From Methylacidiphilales bacterium (GTDB lineage Bacteria > Verrucomicrobiota > Verrucomicrobiia > Methylacidiphilales > UBA1321): a stretch of DNA of 64,000 nt. Every line of letters starts with the position of its first letter. Within the stretch, counting starts at the first letter, position 1. Both the position numbers and the translations under genes were made by a program. Where the stretch lies: assembly GCA_026225555.1 (NCBI GenBank), contig JAMFSY010000111.1, forward strand, positions 1 through 64,000, written 5' to 3'. The notes beneath the pieces were generated by a model. That model saw nothing but the letters and a program-made list of their open reading frames with translations, made no database searches and was not told where the DNA came from. This document shows positions 8,270 to 16,390 of the stretch, piece by piece.

Positions 8270-9351
8270 GCGTTGGCCGTTTCGAGTTCCGCGAATTTTT
8301 GTTCCAGGGCGTGGGTGGCCAGCACGTCGAAAATCTCGTCGAGGTCCCCTTCCATTACCTGCGCCAGATTGTAAGAGGTGAAGTTCACCCGGTGATCGGT
8401 CAGCCGGTTCTGGGGAAAATTATAGGTGCGAATCTTTTCGTTACGGTCGCCATTGCCGATCTGGCTCTTGCGATGCTGGGCGTACTTGGCCTCTTCATCG
8501 GCCTGCTTCTTTTCGAGGAGGCGCGTCCGCAGGATCTGCATCGCCTTGTCCTTGTTCTTGAGCTGCGAGCGGCCATCCTGGCAGCGCACGGTGACGCCGG
8601 TCGGCTTATGGGTGATCTGCACCGCCGAATCGGTCGTATTGACTCCCTGCCCGCCGGGTCCGCCCGAGCGACAAACACTGATCTCGAGGTCATCCGGGCG
8701 AATGACGATATCGACTTCCTTCGCTTCCGGCAGCACGGCAACGGTGGCCGTGGAGGTGTGGACGCGGCCCTGGGCTTCGGTCGCGGGCACGCGTTGCACC
8801 CGATGGACGCCACTTTCGTAGCGAATCTTTTTGTAAACATCGGTGCCAGTGATCTGGAAGATGATTTCCTTCAAGCCGCCTTTGTCCGAGGGACTGAGAT
8901 CCAGCGTCTCTGTCTTCCAGCCGACCCGTTCAGCGTAGCGGCTGTACATCCGCGCCACCTCGGCCGCGAAGAGCGCCGCTTCATCCCCTCCCACACCGGC
9001 GCGAATTTCCACGATGGTGTTGCGGGAATCGTTTTCGTCCGGTGGTACGATGGCAAAGCGGACCAGCTGTTCCGCCTTGGCGTAGGCGGGGCGCAGGGAG
9101 GAGAGCTCTTCCTCGGCCATTTCAGCCATCTCCGGCTCGGAATTATTGCGCGCCATGTCCTCGGTCTCGGCGAGATGCGCCTTGAGTTTCAACCAGTTCT
9201 GGCCATCGGCCAGCACCTGCTTGAGGCGCGAATGTTCCCGCGTTAATTCCTGCGCCTTCTGCGGATTATCGTAGAGGTCGGGGCGGCCCATAAGCTCTTC
9301 CAGCTCCGCAAAGCGGCGTCCGAAACGATCAAGATGAGGCGTCAGGTCCAT
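8266..9351 (-). CDS. prfA: Peptide chain release factor 1
   Basis: [25 protein letters not shown] with GGQ motif; [29 protein letters not shown]. Confidence 0.96.
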
Positions 9352-9365
9352 GGCAGGTCAGGGGC

Positions 9366-9415
9366 GATAAAAACAATAAGGGCGCAGGTGCCGATGTCCG
9401 GCAGGCTGCGCCCTT
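9366..9415 (-). terminator. Rho-independent terminator downstream of rpmE
   Basis: On the minus strand AAGGGCGCAG...CTGCGCCCTT stem followed by ATTGTTTTT. Confidence 0.75.
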
Positions 9416-9425
9416 GATGGGAAAA

Positions 9426-9683
9426 CTATTTCTTTTTGGCGGGAGCGGGAATGGCGGCCGTGCCCATGCGCTTCTCGGTCAGTTTGCTCGCACCGAAGCG
9501 GCGCGTGAATTTCTCGACGCGACCGGCGGTATCAACAAACTTTTGCTGACCGGTGAAAAAGGGATGGCAGGCGGCGCAGATACCCAGGCGGATGTTCTGC
9601 TTGGTGGAACGCGTATGGTAGACCGTGCCGCAGGCGCAAACGATCTGGCTGTCCACGTATTCGGGGTGGATGTTCTGTTTCAT
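9426..9683 (-). CDS. rpmE: 50S ribosomal protein L31
   Basis: MKQNIHPEYVDSQIVCACGTVYHTRST...CAACHPFFTGQQKFVDTAGRVEKF (Cys-containing form); ATG at 9683. Confidence 0.95.
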   Translation of the reverse strand: MKQNIHPEYVDSQIVCACGTVYHTRSTKQNIRLGICAACHPFFTGQQKFVDTAGRVEKFTRRFGASKLTEKRMGTAAIPAPAKKK

Positions 9684-9765
9684 GGGAGTTGGAAACCGTA
9701 GCTCAAACCTGCGGAAGAGCAAGCGACAAATAATAAGCGTTTAAAAGGGGCGCCCCACCAGGAAA

Positions 9766-9975
9766 TCAATGACTGCCACTACCCTGCGCCGTGTCGAGCA
9801 GCGTGGTGATCGCGCTGAAAATCACTTCGATTCTTTGCCCAAGAAGCGAGACGGCACCGATCATGACTACCGCTAGAACGGCGATGATCAGCGAATATTC
9901 AACCAGAGTCTGGCCTTTTTTCTGCCGCCATTGTTTCGCAAGCCGAAAGGAAAGGGATGAGGAGTGCGACCGCAT
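9766..9975 (-). CDS. Flp/Fap-type pilin subunit
   Basis: KKGQTLVEYSLIIAVLAVVMIGAVSLLG, Flp-type N-terminal hydrophobic segment with GQTLVEY. Confidence 0.82.
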   Translation of the reverse strand: MRSHSSSLSFRLAKQWRQKKGQTLVEYSLIIAVLAVVMIGAVSLLGQRIEVIFSAITTLLDTAQGSGSH

Positions 9976-10099
9976 GCGAAGGGAAAAGAGAGTGTGATGC
10001 GTGTCGAGCTTAACTTATTTCGCGAATCCGACAATCAATTCGGAGTGAAGAAAGAGAATTGGGAGAATAGAACTTCCCAAGTCTCTGAGCCTAAGAGAA

Positions 10100-10294
10100 T
10101 TAGTGGCTCGCAGCCAGCTGGCTGTTAATCGAGGAGAACACCTTCGTGACCTGATTGCCGAGGGCGATCAGGACGGAGATGGCCACCACCGAGATGAAGG
10201 CCAGGATGAGCGCGTACTCAACGAGGGTCTGACCCTTCTTGCTCTTGAGACGACGCAGCGCAGTTTTGGCGCGGATAATTACTTTGTTGATCAT
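10100..10294 (-). CDS. Flp/Fap-type pilin subunit
   Basis: MINKVIIRAKTALRRLKSKKGQTLVEYALILAFISVVAISVLIALGNQVTKVFSSINSQL; AGGAGGTGA ribosome-binding site just upstream of the ATG at 10294. Confidence 0.87.
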   Translation of the reverse strand: MINKVIIRAKTALRRLKSKKGQTLVEYALILAFISVVAISVLIALGNQVTKVFSSINSQLAASH

Positions 10295-10608
10295 TGTTAT
10301 TTCACCTCCTCTCAAAAAAAAGTGTCTGAAAATTGAAAGTAGAAGCGCTGTCAGCCGCCACTCAGTAACCCGTAACAACCATTTCGTATGCCATCGCTAT
10401 ATGGGCCTCCCTCATTTCCCTTGAGCTGTTTTTGGACCTTCTCAACTATCATGGATAGTAAGCCTGACAACAACATCTTATGTCAAATAAAACTCAAAAA
10501 TAAGTGATAAGTTATTTTCTGATCCTAGGAAAGGGGCGAGGTGAACGGGAGAAAAAACATGTCCTGATTCCGAACGGTGTGCCTTTTTTGCCTACACTTT
10601 TTGGACAC

Positions 10609-11079
10609 TCAGGAAATTGCTGCAGGGCCGTTTAAGAAATCGCCATCCAAAATAAGGGGGCCTACCTGTGATTCCTTCTCACGCGCTAATTGCAGAAGAC
10701 CATTCAAGGCTCCTGTTACCTGCTGGGCGTAAAAACGGACCAGGCCGATGTTCGTTTTCTCCCCGAAAATGGTGACGAGCAGACACTCATGGTGCAAGGC
10801 GCTCATCAGGATATGCTGTCCCTGTCCTTCGTGATAAAGAGCGCTGAATTCAGATTCCCCCAGCCGCTTTGCCAGCTCGTGCGTGGCGGCGAAGGAGCCT
10901 GCCGCGAGAGCGGAAAGAATACTGAGGTCGAGCGTCCCCGTGTCGCCATATTGGGCGAAGAGATTGCCGCCCTTATCGACCAAGGCAGACCATTGCGCCT
11001 CCGACTTCGCGAGAAAGTCGGCCAGCTGCTGTTCAATGGCCATTTGATCTTCGGCCGTTAACATTCCGATTCCAGTCAT
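10609..11079 (-). CDS. Roadblock/LC7-domain protein (MglB-like)
   Basis: 156 aa, roadblock-like fold pattern (AQWSALVDKGGNLFAQYGDTGTLDLSILSALAAGSFAATHELAKRLGE...); immediately downstream of an MglA-like GTPase. Confidence 0.75.
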   Translation of the reverse strand: MTGIGMLTAEDQMAIEQQLADFLAKSEAQWSALVDKGGNLFAQYGDTGTLDLSILSALAAGSFAATHELAKRLGESEFSALYHEGQGQHILMSALHHECLLVTIFGEKTNIGLVRFYAQQVTGALNGLLQLAREKESQVGPLILDGDFLNGPAAIS

Positions 11080-11092
11080 AGATTCCTTTTCA

Positions 11093-11767
11093 TTAGGCGG
11101 CGTGACCCGCCTCTTCCGCCGGCGGAGGGACGACCGTGGCAGCGTTGGGTTGCGACAGGCCGGTCACATTGGCATTGGGGCTTTTGGAATATTTTGCGAG
11201 CAGTAAGCGCGCCGCGGCATTCAAGGTCTCCAGGACCCCCGTTCCCTCCGAGGCCATCGCTTCAAACGCGATCGCGCGGTTGGCGCGGTTGTTGAAGGTG
11301 AATTCCAGGTAATTGATCGGAGCCGCGTTGGGGATGTCCCGCTTGTTGTACTGCAGAACGTAGGGAATCTGCACCAGGCTCAGGTGGTTCTCGATGAGAT
11401 TCTCCTGCAGATTGGCAAACGATTCCACGTTGTCCGCCATGCGGTCCCAATGGGAATCGACCACGAACACAATGCCATCGACGCCCTTGAGGACAAGTTG
11501 CCGGGTCGTATTGTAAATGGCCTGGCCCGGCACCGTATAAAGTTGGAAGCGGGTCGTGAAGCCGGGCAGCGTCTTCGTGTTGAGCGAGAGGAAATCGAAG
11601 AAGAGCGTGCGATCCGCATCCGTCGCAAGGGAGACCAGTTCGCCCTTCTGTGCGTGGGTGATCTGCTTGTGCAGCGTCACCAGATTGGTTGTCTTGCCGC
11701 AAAGGGCGGCGCCATAATAGACGATCTTTAACTGAATCTCGCGGCTCGAATAATTGATGAAAGCCAT
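11093..11767 (-). CDS. MglA-like small Ras-like GTPase
   Basis: MAFINYSSREIQLKIVYYGAALCGKTTNL (P-loop), LYTVPGQAIYNTTRQLVLKGVDGIVFVVDS, YVLQYNKRDIPNA; very close to the Myxococcus MglA pattern, with a Pro/Ala-rich C-terminal tail. Confidence 0.92.
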   Translation of the reverse strand: MAFINYSSREIQLKIVYYGAALCGKTTNLVTLHKQITHAQKGELVSLATDADRTLFFDFLSLNTKTLPGFTTRFQLYTVPGQAIYNTTRQLVLKGVDGIVFVVDSHWDRMADNVESFANLQENLIENHLSLVQIPYVLQYNKRDIPNAAPINYLEFTFNNRANRAIAFEAMASEGTGVLETLNAAARLLLAKYSKSPNANVTGLSQPNAATVVPPPAEEAGHAA

Positions 11768-11781
11768 AAGCTACTTCAAGC

Positions 11782-14154
11782 TCAAGTGGGCCGCAGGCTT
11801 AGCCCGGCCAGAACCAACCGCGCGATCTTCACATGACGATCGGGCATCTGGGGCAACCGGGAGAGAATGATTAGGTAGAGATCGTGACTGCGGAAGATGT
11901 GGAAGCTGGTGCCCGTCGTCGGGATGATCAGTTCATCGGTTTCCTTCCCGGCGATTTCACCGAACGACTTATTGATCGCCTCGAACATCCGGGGGGCAAA
12001 GGCCACGATGGCGTCCTTGTCGAATCCCGAAGGAACCGTCCCGACCAGCGACAGGCCGCTCTTCTGGCTCAAAACACAGCCCGTGACATCCGGCCAGCAG
12101 GTGATCCGCTCGGTGACATCCTTGAGCGTGACCTTCTGCTCCGCAGGAAATCCGAGCAGCTCGGACAACGAGTGCGACACGCCCGATTGCGGAGGCGCCT
12201 CGCCCGTCAGATTGCTGTAGGCGGCACTGTTCATGCCAGGGACGTCGAGAAGATCCTCGATCCGCTTGAACGATCCAATCTTGTTCCGGTAGCGCACGAT
12301 GGAGTCGGCGAGAAGCGTGGTGCAGCCGGGAATCGCCAGCAATTCGTCCGCCGTGCAGCTATTCAAATTCAATGCGTGGGAAGCCGGCGCTTCCTGGGCT
12401 TCCGGTTGTTCCACAGGCGGCGGAGCAACGGGTGCCAGCGGCGTCGGCACGGGACTTTCAACCAGGGGAGGCATCGGGGCCGTGATGCTCTTGCTGCCGA
12501 AACCACGCGTTTGGGCGGTTACCGGTTGAAGTGTAGTCCGGAAGCTTTCGACGGGGACCGGTGGCGGCGGAGGTGGAATAGCCTGGGTCGGCGCGGTGAC
12601 AGTTTCCCCAATGGGAACTTCCACTGGCTGAGTTTCGGCCACCGGAGAAGGAACGACCTCGGGTGTGGCGGGCTGACCCTCGCCCTCTTCACCCATCTGC
12701 TGCATGGCCAGGGCGGCGAGCCGCTGAAGCTCGTCGGCGGCCGCGTCGGGTTCGCCGGGCTGCGGGAAGGTCGGCTTTTCCTCGGGAGATTCAGGTTCGG
12801 GAACAGGCTCCGGCGTATCGCTCGCCGACTTGGGCAGGACTGGCACGGTGGGCGTGGCCGAAGTGACCGAAGGCCGCAACAACGGCTGGGGAGGCTGAGG
12901 TACCCGGATGGCGGGAGGGGGCATCGGGAGGGACGTGGTCGGGCGCGGTGAGGCGGGCATCGGCACGGCAGGCTGCCCCGTGGCGCCCGGAGGACGTGAA
13001 TCGATACTGGCCAGAGATACCGGCATGGTGACGGCCGCGTGGATTCGGGCGGGAATCGGCGTCGTGGCACGAGTGGGCGCGGGAAGGCGGCCGGAGGGAG
13101 AAATCGTCCTGGAAGTCGTATTGGGCGCGACGGGCGGAACCGGGGCGCTGGCCCGGGCCACGCTGGGGATTGGAGGAATGGCGCCGGTGCGCGGGGTGGG
13201 CGGAGGAATGGTGATCTTGTTCACTGGCGTCATGGGGGGCAAACCACCCGTGACGGGAGTGGGGGGACGCGGCACCGCTGGCAGAGCTGTCGATGGAGGA
13301 CGTGGCGGGGGCACGAAGCTCCGCGTGGCCGTCGCCTGATCGCGAGGCACGAATTCCTCGGTGGGAGCCTGGCTTTCCTCAATGATATTGGTCTTCGTCT
13401 GGGCCTGTGCCTGATTCCGGGCCGCTTCGGCCTGCTCCCGGAGGATTTCCTCGGTGAAGGGATCGGCCATGTTGATGACCGAGGCATCGACGTCCTTCTG
13501 GTCGGGACGAAGAGCCAGGAGATCAGGCGGAATCCGCATGACCACGTCCATCAGGGGGAGATTGATCAACTGGGGCAAATAACTGGTGATCGACTCGGTC
13601 GGCTGCAGGTAGCCGGGAGGGAAATGAGGCACCAGCTCCTGCAGCGTCATCTCCACCTTTCCTGAAGGCAGCTGGCTGAGAATCATGTTCATGGGCAGAC
13701 CGATTTCAGTCGCCGCCGCGCCAGATGCTTCAAAGTCTGAAATATCAGCCGCCAAAACTTCCTGCGGCAGACAGCGCAGGATCATGCCCATAGGCAAATT
13801 TATCCGCCCTGAGGGCGTGGCCATGGAAAGGGACTTGGTACCGCTAAGCCCTCCCGTGCTCGTGAGAGAAGGCAGAACGATCCTCTGGGTGGAGCGCGAT
13901 GAAGGGGGGGTTGCCCGGGCAGGCCGCATGGGCGAACTGCCGGGGCGCGGCATGACCATCGGTTGCGTGGTCGCTGCGCCCGCCGGGATGCCTGTCGCGG
14001 GAATTAACCCGGAAAGCTGCGGAGGCTTAACAATTGGAGAAGAACCCGCAGCCGGAGGCGTCTGAATCTTGGGAGGAGTCGGTGGCGCTTTTGCCACAGA
14101 TACAGAGGGTTCGGGAGGGTTTTTATCTTTTTTACCAAAAGAAAAAAGGGCCAT
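11782..14154 (-). CDS. Large Pro-rich protein with helix-hairpin-helix domain and possible C-terminal roadblock-like domain
   Basis: MALFSFGKKDKNPPEP... start at 14154; HhH segment LNLNSCTADELLAIPGCTTLLADSIVRYRNKIGSFKRIEDLLDVPGM; C-terminal ERITCWPDVTGCVLSQKSGLSLVGTVP... resembles roadblock/LC7; long Pro/Thr-rich linker. Confidence 0.75.
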   Translation of the reverse strand: MALFSFGKKDKNPPEPSVSVAKAPPTPPKIQTPPAAGSSPIVKPPQLSGLIPATGIPAGAATTQPMVMPRPGSSPMRPARATPPSSRSTQRIVLPSLTSTGGLSGTKSLSMATPSGRINLPMGMILRCLPQEVLAADISDFEASGAAATEIGLPMNMILSQLPSGKVEMTLQELVPHFPPGYLQPTESITSYLPQLINLPLMDVVMRIPPDLLALRPDQKDVDASVINMADPFTEEILREQAEAARNQAQAQTKTNIIEESQAPTEEFVPRDQATATRSFVPPPRPPSTALPAVPRPPTPVTGGLPPMTPVNKITIPPPTPRTGAIPPIPSVARASAPVPPVAPNTTSRTISPSGRLPAPTRATTPIPARIHAAVTMPVSLASIDSRPPGATGQPAVPMPASPRPTTSLPMPPPAIRVPQPPQPLLRPSVTSATPTVPVLPKSASDTPEPVPEPESPEEKPTFPQPGEPDAAADELQRLAALAMQQMGEEGEGQPATPEVVPSPVAETQPVEVPIGETVTAPTQAIPPPPPPVPVESFRTTLQPVTAQTRGFGSKSITAPMPPLVESPVPTPLAPVAPPPVEQPEAQEAPASHALNLNSCTADELLAIPGCTTLLADSIVRYRNKIGSFKRIEDLLDVPGMNSAAYSNLTGEAPPQSGVSHSLSELLGFPAEQKVTLKDVTERITCWPDVTGCVLSQKSGLSLVGTVPSGFDKDAIVAFAPRMFEAINKSFGEIAGKETDELIIPTTGTSFHIFRSHDLYLIILSRLPQMPDRHVKIARLVLAGLSLRPT

Positions 14155-14169
14155 ATAAAGTGAGAATTT

Positions 14170-14195
14170 CGTCGAAAGCTTGTCAAGCCTCGACG
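14170..14195. promoter_or_regulatory. Imperfect inverted repeat in divergent intergenic region
   Basis: CGTCGAAAGCTTG-T-CAAGCCTCGACG between the HhH-protein and DUF4388-FHA gene starts. Confidence 0.5.
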
Positions 14196-14240
14196 ATGGT
14201 GCACTATTATCTTGCGGTTGCAACAGCAAATATCGTCTTG

Positions 14241-15269
14241 ATGAGCTACTCAAACAGCAGTCCCGCCCCGCATGGCGACGAGCCCGGTACCCCCGGTTTT
14301 AATACCCAAAGCCAACTGGGTTTGGCCGAGGTTTTACAGATGTGTTGCGGTGCGCGAAGAAGCGGTCAGATCACGTTTCGTTCGGGCGAATCCTGCGGCT
14401 ACGTTTACCTCCAGCATGGCAACGTCCTGCACGCCCTTTGCGGCACGGTCGAAGGTGAAGATGCCGTCTACCGGATGCTCGGCTGGCCCGGCGGCGGCTT
14501 CAGCATTAATCAGGATATTCTTCCTCACAAAAAGACGGTGGGGCTGACCTGGGAACAGTTGATTTTCGAGGGTGCCCGGCGGGCCGATGACGGTCCCAAT
14601 AGCGCCCGGGATATCCTTAATCATCCGGTCAAAACTCCGGAGCCGGTGGTCAGCACCCGGGCAAAAGATAGCCAGCCCAAACTGACCCTAATTTTGCCGG
14701 ATCAGCGTCCTCTGGTCCACGAACTTCAGGCAGAATATACCCATGTGGGACGAGCGCCGGGGAACGAAGTGCCCCTCATTTACCCCTCTGTTTCGAACCG
14801 CCATTGTATTTTTATCCTGAACGGGTCCGACGTGATCTTACGGGATCTCAATTCCTCCAATGGAACCATCGTCAACGGTGTGGCGATTTCCGAAGCCGTC
14901 CTTCGGCCCGGCGACTTAATCCAGGTTGGCGTGGTCCAAATCAGATTCGAGCCTGGCGTCCGTCGCCCCAAGCTTACCCAGACCACCCCTGCCCCCGCGC
15001 CCTTGAACAACCCCGGTTTGCGCCCCGCGCCGGAACGTCTTCCCGCCCATAATACCGTCAGGCTGCCGGAGCCGCGCCCGACCCCGCAAAAGATTGAGGA
15101 CGACAGCGTTTTCGTTAAAGGCGAGTCGCCGATCAGTTACGAAAGGCTCGCCAAGCCGGAGGCACCCGCCAAGAGCCGGGTCTTGCCCATGATTGTCGGC
15201 GCCCTCATTATCGTGCTGGCGATTTCAGCAGCGGGTTACTACTTCTTCGTCGTTCTCGCGCATCATTAA
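14241..15269 (+). CDS. DUF4388 (PATAN-like) + FHA domain protein with C-terminal TM segment
   Basis: N-terminal LAEVLQMCCGARRSGQITFRSGESCGYVYLQHGNVLHALCGTVEGEDAVYRML; FHA THVGRAPGNEVPLIYPSVSNRHCIF...LRDLNSSNGTIVNG; C-terminal hydrophobic segment VLPMIVGALIIVLAISAAGYYFFVV. Confidence 0.87.
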   Translation: MSYSNSSPAPHGDEPGTPGFNTQSQLGLAEVLQMCCGARRSGQITFRSGESCGYVYLQHGNVLHALCGTVEGEDAVYRMLGWPGGGFSINQDILPHKKTVGLTWEQLIFEGARRADDGPNSARDILNHPVKTPEPVVSTRAKDSQPKLTLILPDQRPLVHELQAEYTHVGRAPGNEVPLIYPSVSNRHCIFILNGSDVILRDLNSSNGTIVNGVAISEAVLRPGDLIQVGVVQIRFEPGVRRPKLTQTTPAPAPLNNPGLRPAPERLPAHNTVRLPEPRPTPQKIEDDSVFVKGESPISYERLAKPEAPAKSRVLPMIVGALIIVLAISAAGYYFFVVLAHH

Positions 15270-15367
15270 AGACTGTTAGCGTAGAAGATGGCGCCGATGA
15301 CCGGCCCGCCTCGCCCGATTTTAACCTCGAGTGCGCGGGATCGCCCGGCCAACTCCCATCATAGGCG

Positions 15368-16390
15368 ATGCTCGACAACGCCTCGCCTCTTCCCTATTCC
15401 TTGAAGTTTTCCGCCATGTTTTCTCCTGACCTGCTCGCGTCTCTGCGGGATCTTTGTGCCCGTCACCAGCGCTTTCTGGTTATCTCCCACCTGCGCCCGG
15501 ACGGCGACGCCTACGGTTCGACTCTGGGCCTCGCTCTGAGCCTGCGCGCCGCCGGCAAGGACGTGACCGTGGTCAATGCGGACGGGATGGGCGCCCAGTT
15601 TGAATTCCTGCCTGGCAGCCAGACCCTGACGGCGACAGCCGCCGTCCCGCCCGAGGCCGACCGCTTGATCATTGCCGTCGATTGCGCCGATCCCAAGCGG
15701 CTTGGTTCCGTCTTCGAATCCTGGAAGCGCCTGCCCGACGTCAATATCGATCACCACATCAGCAATCCCGGCTACGCGGCGCTGAACATCATCGATCCCA
15801 ATTCCCCCGCCACCGCTCAGGTGCTTTACGAGATTCTCACCGCCCTGCAATGGCCCCTCACCGCGGAAGTCGCGGCGAATCTTTATGTTGGCATCATGAC
15901 GGACACCGGCTGCTTCCGTTATCGCCAGACCACGGCGCGCACGCTGGAAATCGCCGCGCGGCTGGTCGAGGCGGGAGCCAATCCCACCGATCTCGCCGAA
16001 AGCTGTTATCAGAGCTTCCGCGCGGAACGTTTACGCCTGATGCGGGAAGTGCTGAACGCGCTCCACTTCGCCAATCGCGATCGCATTGCCTGGTTCTCCC
16101 TCACGCCCGAAATGTATGCCCGCAGCGGCGCGACGGCGGACGAGACGGAAGGTCTCATTGAATATCTTCAGGCGGTGCGGACCGTGGAAGTGGCCTTTCT
16201 CCTCGAAATCATGGCCGACGGCATGACCCGGGCCAGCCTGCGTTCCCGTGGAACGGTGGACGTGCAGAAGATCTGCGCGACCTTTGGCGGAGGCGGGCAT
16301 CGCCTGGCCGCCGGGTTGCGGACCCGGCTCGAGCCCGCCGTCCTGGAAAAGAAACTGGTGGATTTAATCGCGGAACAATTGCCCGCCTAA
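15368..16390 (+). CDS. DHH-family phosphoesterase (NrnA-like oligoribonuclease / pAp phosphatase)
   Basis: VISHLRPDGDAYGSTLGLALSL, VDCADP, NIDHHISNPGYA, GGGGHRLAAG. Confidence 0.9.
   Translation: MLDNASPLPYSLKFSAMFSPDLLASLRDLCARHQRFLVISHLRPDGDAYGSTLGLALSLRAAGKDVTVVNADGMGAQFEFLPGSQTLTATAAVPPEADRLIIAVDCADPKRLGSVFESWKRLPDVNIDHHISNPGYAALNIIDPNSPATAQVLYEILTALQWPLTAEVAANLYVGIMTDTGCFRYRQTTARTLEIAARLVEAGANPTDLAESCYQSFRAERLRLMREVLNALHFANRDRIAWFSLTPEMYARSGATADETEGLIEYLQAVRTVEVAFLLEIMADGMTRASLRSRGTVDVQKICATFGGGGHRLAAGLRTRLEPAVLEKKLVDLIAEQLPA

Follow-up and report, generated by a model that had tools for sequence, protein, structure and literature searches.

A probable pilus control switch in Verrucomicrobiota: an MglA/MglB module whose third partner carries an uncatalogued domain

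In the window, i.e., the whole stretch of 64,000 nucleotides analysed here (contig JAMFSY010000111.1 of the Methylacidiphilales assembly GCA_026225555.1), a small GTPase of the MglA type and an MglB-like roadblock protein are encoded together with a large third protein, here called PH. With moderate confidence, we read this locus as a PVC-type MglA/MglB switch, in which the third partner PH couples the GTPase to pilus motors. The module probably controls pili, in a manner that differs from the switch of Myxococcus. The initial annotation had described a compact module of MglA and MglB together with a large third protein, and the gene identities and the conserved neighbourhood bear this out; the three same-strand genes, the two Flp pilin genes and the divergent DUF4388-FHA-TM gene that it listed were all found at or very near the positions given. 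On the minus strand, the transcription order is PH, MglA, the MglB-like protein and two Flp-type prepilins, while the DUF4388-FHA-TM gene is divergent:

11782 to 14154, minus strand: PH protein, 790 aa, consisting of an N-terminal domain, a Pro-rich linker, HhH and roadblock
13420 to 13821, minus strand: PH N-terminal domain, aa ~112-245, composed of beta-alpha units, motif [VI]xLPLxxVLxxLP repeated
12385 to 13419, minus strand: Pro-rich linker of PH, aa 246-590, 25% Pro
12202 to 12378, minus strand: HhH domain of PH (HHH_3, ComEA-like), aa 593-651, HHH_3 E 7.8e-14
11863 to 12123, minus strand: C-terminal roadblock domain of PH, Pfam E 0.13, with profile, hhalign and AlphaFold support
11093 to 11767, minus strand: MglA, group-1 small GTPase, R53-T54 and T78-V-P-G-Q82
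10609 to 11079, minus strand: MglB-like roadblock protein, predicted GAP, with Robl_LC7 and PDB MglB matches
10100 to 10294, minus strand: Flp-type prepilin 1, Flp_Fap E 3e-8, with a strong ribosome site GAGGAGGTG
9766 to 9975, minus strand: Flp-type prepilin 2, Flp_Fap E 6e-7 (slightly under the Pfam cut-off), fast-evolving
14241 to 15269, plus strand: divergent DUF4388(PATAN)-FHA-TM protein, DUF4388 E 1.5e-16, FHA E 1.4e-16

The start codon of PH is taken as the ATG at 14154, with an upstream TTG at 14253 also open, and lies 86 bp from that of the divergent DUF4388-FHA-TM gene. Conservation of the neighbourhood, a check set beforehand, was found in relatives: the order PH-MglA-MglB with the divergent FHA gene is kept at genus and family level and in much of the order, and within the genus of the window the Flp genes are kept with them, including in L064, which has different flanking genes. 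The uncorrected pN/pS ratios of MglA, MglB and the first Flp prepilin are 0.07-0.18, and this low ratio together with the conserved gene order argues that the locus is more than a chance assembly. An Rfam scan of positions 9300-15400 gave no matches, and a promoter and terminator scan returned no more sites than shuffled sequences.

Among solved structures, the best match of MglA in the PDB is Myxococcus MglA (E 7e-63), and its nearest relatives are the MglA proteins of Myxococcus and Thermus. Group-1 MglA proteins are recognised by an Arg beside the conserved Thr of G2 and by the G3 motif TVPGQ, which holds the catalytic Gln (PMC4316618); the corresponding R53-T54 and T78-V79-P80-G81-Q82 are both present here and invariant in 24 aligned sequences. 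Judged by these residues, MglA is a canonical member of group 1 that keeps every catalytic residue of the group. The MglB-like protein matches Robl_LC7 (E 5e-9, above the Pfam cut-off) and PDB MglB (E 3e-16), has Myxococcus and Thermus MglB as its nearest solved relatives, and is the sole roadblock protein matched by the Pfam model in the genome. It combines a roadblock domain related to MglB with a gene beside mglA, as an MglB should, and scores 58.5 bits against the curated equivalog NF052242 (Thermus MglB), for which the cut-off is 200; by these profile scores it is a relative and not the equivalog NF052242 itself.

The C-terminus of PH reaches 12.5 bits against Pfam Robl_LC7, under the gathering score of 23. 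Nevertheless, a profile of PH C-termini built free of MglB matches only roadblock proteins in the PDB, and hhalign of this region against an MglB alignment gives an E of 4e-6. The AlphaFold (AF2) model follows the alpha-bb-alpha-bbb-alpha order of the roadblock at pLDDT >90, and the top Foldseek matches of this model are MglB (E 8e-7). By profile and by model, the PH C-terminus is a true roadblock fold related to MglB; the roadblock-like C-terminus that had been suggested earlier is real in this fold check, which was set beforehand, on the MglB-free profile and AlphaFold, despite the Pfam E of 0.13. For the HhH region the model is poor (pLDDT <50 in part) because the alignment had no row covering it, but Pfam matches the region strongly. 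The Pfam scan of PH returned no TPR, and a PHROGs search with PH gave no match. A second, weaker set of matches from the first search (e.g., G009:C12, L078) was rejected, as these align solely with the HhH region of PH and resemble an unrelated S1-type RNA-binding protein.

The HHH_3 match (E 8e-14) and a weaker likeness to ComEA profiles might point to DNA uptake, in which a ComEA-like HhH in PH would bind DNA and the module would couple competence pili to DNA processing. This reading is very improbable: PH, read by eye, has no apparent signal peptide or membrane segment, unlike ComEA, and competence genes were not seen in the locus. Moreover, in several module lineages (L107-L123) the C-terminal profile matches the roadblock part only and no HhH. 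The combination of HhH, Pro-rich stretch and roadblock in one polypeptide, which the initial annotation had singled out as unusual, is no peculiarity of this genome, as it recurs in the phylum at large. The truly unusual part of PH is its N-terminal domain (hereafter N-domain).

This conserved N-domain, overlooked in the earlier reading, measures about 115 aa. An iterated profile finds it in 56 open frames of the collected loci, in up to three copies, and AlphaFold models it as repeated strand-helix units with a mean pLDDT of 90 and a pTM of 0.69. No match was obtained with Pfam on 42 members, with the profile against PDB sequences, or with Foldseek of the model against PDB folds and BFVD viral models; by sequence and model comparison with these four resources, the N-domain seems to lie outside any known family.

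The presence of the N-domain follows that of MglA. In a phylum survey of 289 genomes, with MglA counted at E <1e-30, MglA was found in 27 genomes and the N-domain by direct search in 28, with 24 common to both; the domain occurs without MglA in four, and neither occurs in 258. The corresponding Fisher p of ~4e-34 ignores shared ancestry. Three further MglA genomes (G241, G253, G288) had seemed to be cases of MglA without the N-domain, which was rejected, as each has a divergent copy in the gene adjoining mglA, so that all 27 MglA genomes have the domain. In six genomes, the N-domain and MglA are far apart or on different contigs, which indicates that the link is more than gene neighbourhood. 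The four genomes with the N-domain only belong to one family; the proteins are ~150-160 aa long in three of them, while in the fourth an open frame of 328 aa contains the domain. The N-domain proteins observed in genomes without MglA or MglB are L224:6191-6679, L226:6149-6616, L227:6311-6760 and, in the longer open frame, L225:5340-6326.

Among 50 named MglA-bearing genomes, 14 carry the N-domain, and these belong to Verrucomicrobiota/Lentisphaerae, Rokubacteria, Methylomirabilota, 'Hebobacteria' and 'Zipacnadia'; the remaining 36 (Myxococcota, Deltaproteobacteria, Acidobacteriota, Nitrospirota and others) gave no match to it. It adjoins mglA in Rokubacteria, Methylomirabilota and 'Hebobacteria', while the 'Zipacnadia' copy is not at the mglA locus. 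At the level of loci, the N-domain lies within 340 bp of mglA in 24 of 80 named MglA loci, on the same strand in 23 of the 24.

These loci also connect the module to pilus motors. A PilB or PilT gene stands within ~6 kb in 10 of the 24 MglA loci with the N-domain and in none of the 56 without it (uncorrected p 1e-6, with related loci not independent and some loci short). The loci of Chthoniobacterales/Spartobacteria encode TPR-MshEN, PilB, PH, MglA and MglB, with PilB just upstream of PH, and those of Limisphaerales encode PH, MglA and MglB followed by PilT. Another family (L082, L084) has MglA and MglB followed by PilB and PilC; in Rokubacteria, PH, MglA and MglB precede a TPR-like stretch fused to MshEN-PilB, and in 'Hebobacteria' PilB, PilT and PilC lie ~6 kb from the module. 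Since the arrangement of the motor genes differs by lineage, it argues for a repeated association of the module with pilus motors. The MshEN domain serves as a receptor for c-di-GMP (PMC5013675). TPR-MshEN proteins are seen beside PilB-PH or PH at L109:5200-6147 and L229:1995-2837. Separately, the TPR-like stretch fused to PilB in Rokubacteria (L124:11114-12448) is a possible counterpart of SgmX.

Within the order to which the window belongs, pilus motor genes do not adjoin the module, and a TPR-MshEN partner gave no match in the window's genome. The pilus link that had been proposed from the window is supported by other lineages, whose loci of this module include PilB, PilT or PilC. Co-occurrence with PilT was rejected as evidence for a pilus link because PilT is near-universal (276 of 289 phylum genomes) and hence uninformative. 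In the window's genome, genes of the PilB, PilT and PilC types as well as a Tad system are located on other contigs.

The adjoining pilins are of the Tad/Flp type and are linked to the module only within the genus, which raises the question of whether the module there controls a Tad/Flp pilus or Tad secretion instead of type IVa pili. The two Flp prepilin genes stand directly downstream in the whole sampled genus, irrespective of the different flanks in L064, and TadA, TadB- and TadC-like genes occur elsewhere in the genome. However, the nearest other genera of the family (L066-L068) have the module without adjacent Flp genes, the in-locus motors of other lineages are of type IVa (PilB/PilT) and not TadA, and the first Flp gene follows the MglB-like gene at a distance of ~315 bp and may have its own promoter; we consider a Tad-directed output quite improbable. 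Tad genes are absent beside the flp genes, so that these do not make up a Tad locus, and lie instead on another contig, C26. The Tad locus observed there (L188:109-7142) encodes a receiver-like protein, a TadA with a Pro-rich N-terminus and TadB-/TadC-like proteins. The second Flp pilin evolves considerably faster than the first (uncorrected pN/pS of 0.4-0.6 vs 0.15-0.18).

A second alternative concerns the role of PH itself, which could be a regulator of the GTPase, i.e., a roadblock co-GAP or exchange factor comparable to MglC, RomY or RomR/RomX, serving general polarity with no specific pilus output. The roadblock domain of PH is related to MglB, roadblock proteins often pair up in GAP/GEF complexes (PMC9481161), and PH shares an operon with both switch proteins. 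Nevertheless, pilus-motor genes recur in the locus, and PH outlasts the loss of MglA and MglB, which is unexpected for a pure MglA regulator. In one family of the order (G013, G021), PH is kept while MglA and MglB were not found, and in G015 an HhH-roadblock protein without the N-domain occurs where MglA and MglB were likewise not found; these exceptions come from draft genomes that are 87-96% complete, in which the absence of a gene is likely, not certain. The genome sister to the first two (G026), likewise a draft, has no MglB and keeps MglA with TLPGY in place of TVPGQ, whereby the catalytic Gln is lost. As observed at L075:1700-2284, this MglA has also lost the Thr of G2 and resembles a switch caught in decay. 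The retention of PH without MglA and MglB implies that it has some use without the switch, and its persistence is more in keeping with an output component than with a pure MglA regulator; we regard the regulator role as unlikely.

Thus, we propose that PH couples the switch to pilus motors. As a dedicated third partner, PH would replace the partners that the MglA/MglB polarity switch has in Myxococcus. MglA would cycle between GTP and GDP, with the MglB roadblock protein turning it off, and PH, being long and flexible, may join MglA/MglB through its C-terminal roadblock. The signal would pass on through the N-domain, which would recruit or gate the ATPases that drive type IV pili, and the output of the switch would be pilus extension or retraction, to which the downstream Flp (Tad-type) pilins may belong in the window's genus. 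A more specific version, in which the N-domain, as a new fold, senses the nucleotide bound to MglA and gates or recruits the type IV pilus motor ATPases directly, as a self-contained PVC-type pilus polarity switch of non-Myxococcus design, is tentative.

The divergent protein may add a phospho-signal. Its FHA domain, read by eye in the translation, conserves the phosphothreonine-binding residues R, S, H and N (in VGR, SNRH and NSSNGT), and these predicted binding residues thus appear to be kept. The one basis for the putative phospho-signal link is this DUF4388-FHA neighbour, and any role of the FHA protein in the module is one that we infer. DUF4388 proteins are frequent neighbours of the module. 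PATAN/DUF4388 proteins near MglA/MglB were described before (Makarova 2006, cited in PMC4316618), so that the association itself is already known, and the 2014 survey of prokaryotic small GTPases noted widely varying gene neighbourhoods for group 1, occasionally including PATAN proteins (PMC4316618). In the present locus, DUF4388 is joined in one protein with FHA and a TM helix, while outside the order it occurs mostly with PAS or receiver domains.

The closest known system is the Myxococcus xanthus MglA/MglB module (with RomR/RomX, RomY, MglC and SgmX), which has the same MglA subfamily, identical catalytic residues, an adjacent MglB-type roadblock protein and pilus-linked genes. However, the gene order is PH-mglA-mglB here and mglB-mglA in the sampled Myxococcota and Acidobacteriota loci, and the N-domain had no match in the Myxococcota/Deltaproteobacteria genomes searched, including Myxococcus sp. 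CA023. Furthermore, relatives of the window have pilus-motor genes in the locus, whereas the mglA gene of Myxococcus lies apart from those of its partners (PMC4316618). There, SgmX, a TPR protein, mediates the action of MglA on PilB through a mechanism that is not known; SgmX brings PilB to the pole, and no direct contact between SgmX and PilB was detected (PMC11580455). A TPR protein and PilB thus work with MglA in that pathway, and TPR-MshEN and PilB genes stand beside PH-mglA-mglB in related lineages; SgmX, however, has 14 TPRs (PMC11580455), while PH and the window's genome lack TPR and TPR-MshEN matches, respectively. Actinobacterial conservons (CvnA-D) are likewise operons of a small GTPase and a roadblock protein with dedicated partners, but the present operon has no histidine kinase or CvnC-like protein, and its MglA belongs to group 1, not group 2.

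Within the open-access literature, no paper was found that connects MglA with HhH and roadblock domains, with DUF4388 or with Verrucomicrobiota, and there appears to be no description of the PH family, of its N-domain or of the pilus-motor operons. The 2014 survey placed Verrucomicrobia under group 5 only (PMC4316618), and the present locus extends group-1 MglA to Verrucomicrobiota. An uncatalogued domain is defined, whose presence tracks MglA across the phylum. If the direct action of the N-domain on the motors is true, the GTPase, its GAP, the effector and, in relatives, an MshEN-bearing motor would be encoded as one unit. The single operon of the relatives, comprising the GTPase, the GAP, the novel-domain partner, TPR-MshEN and PilB, makes the question of how MglA reaches the motor testable with few proteins.
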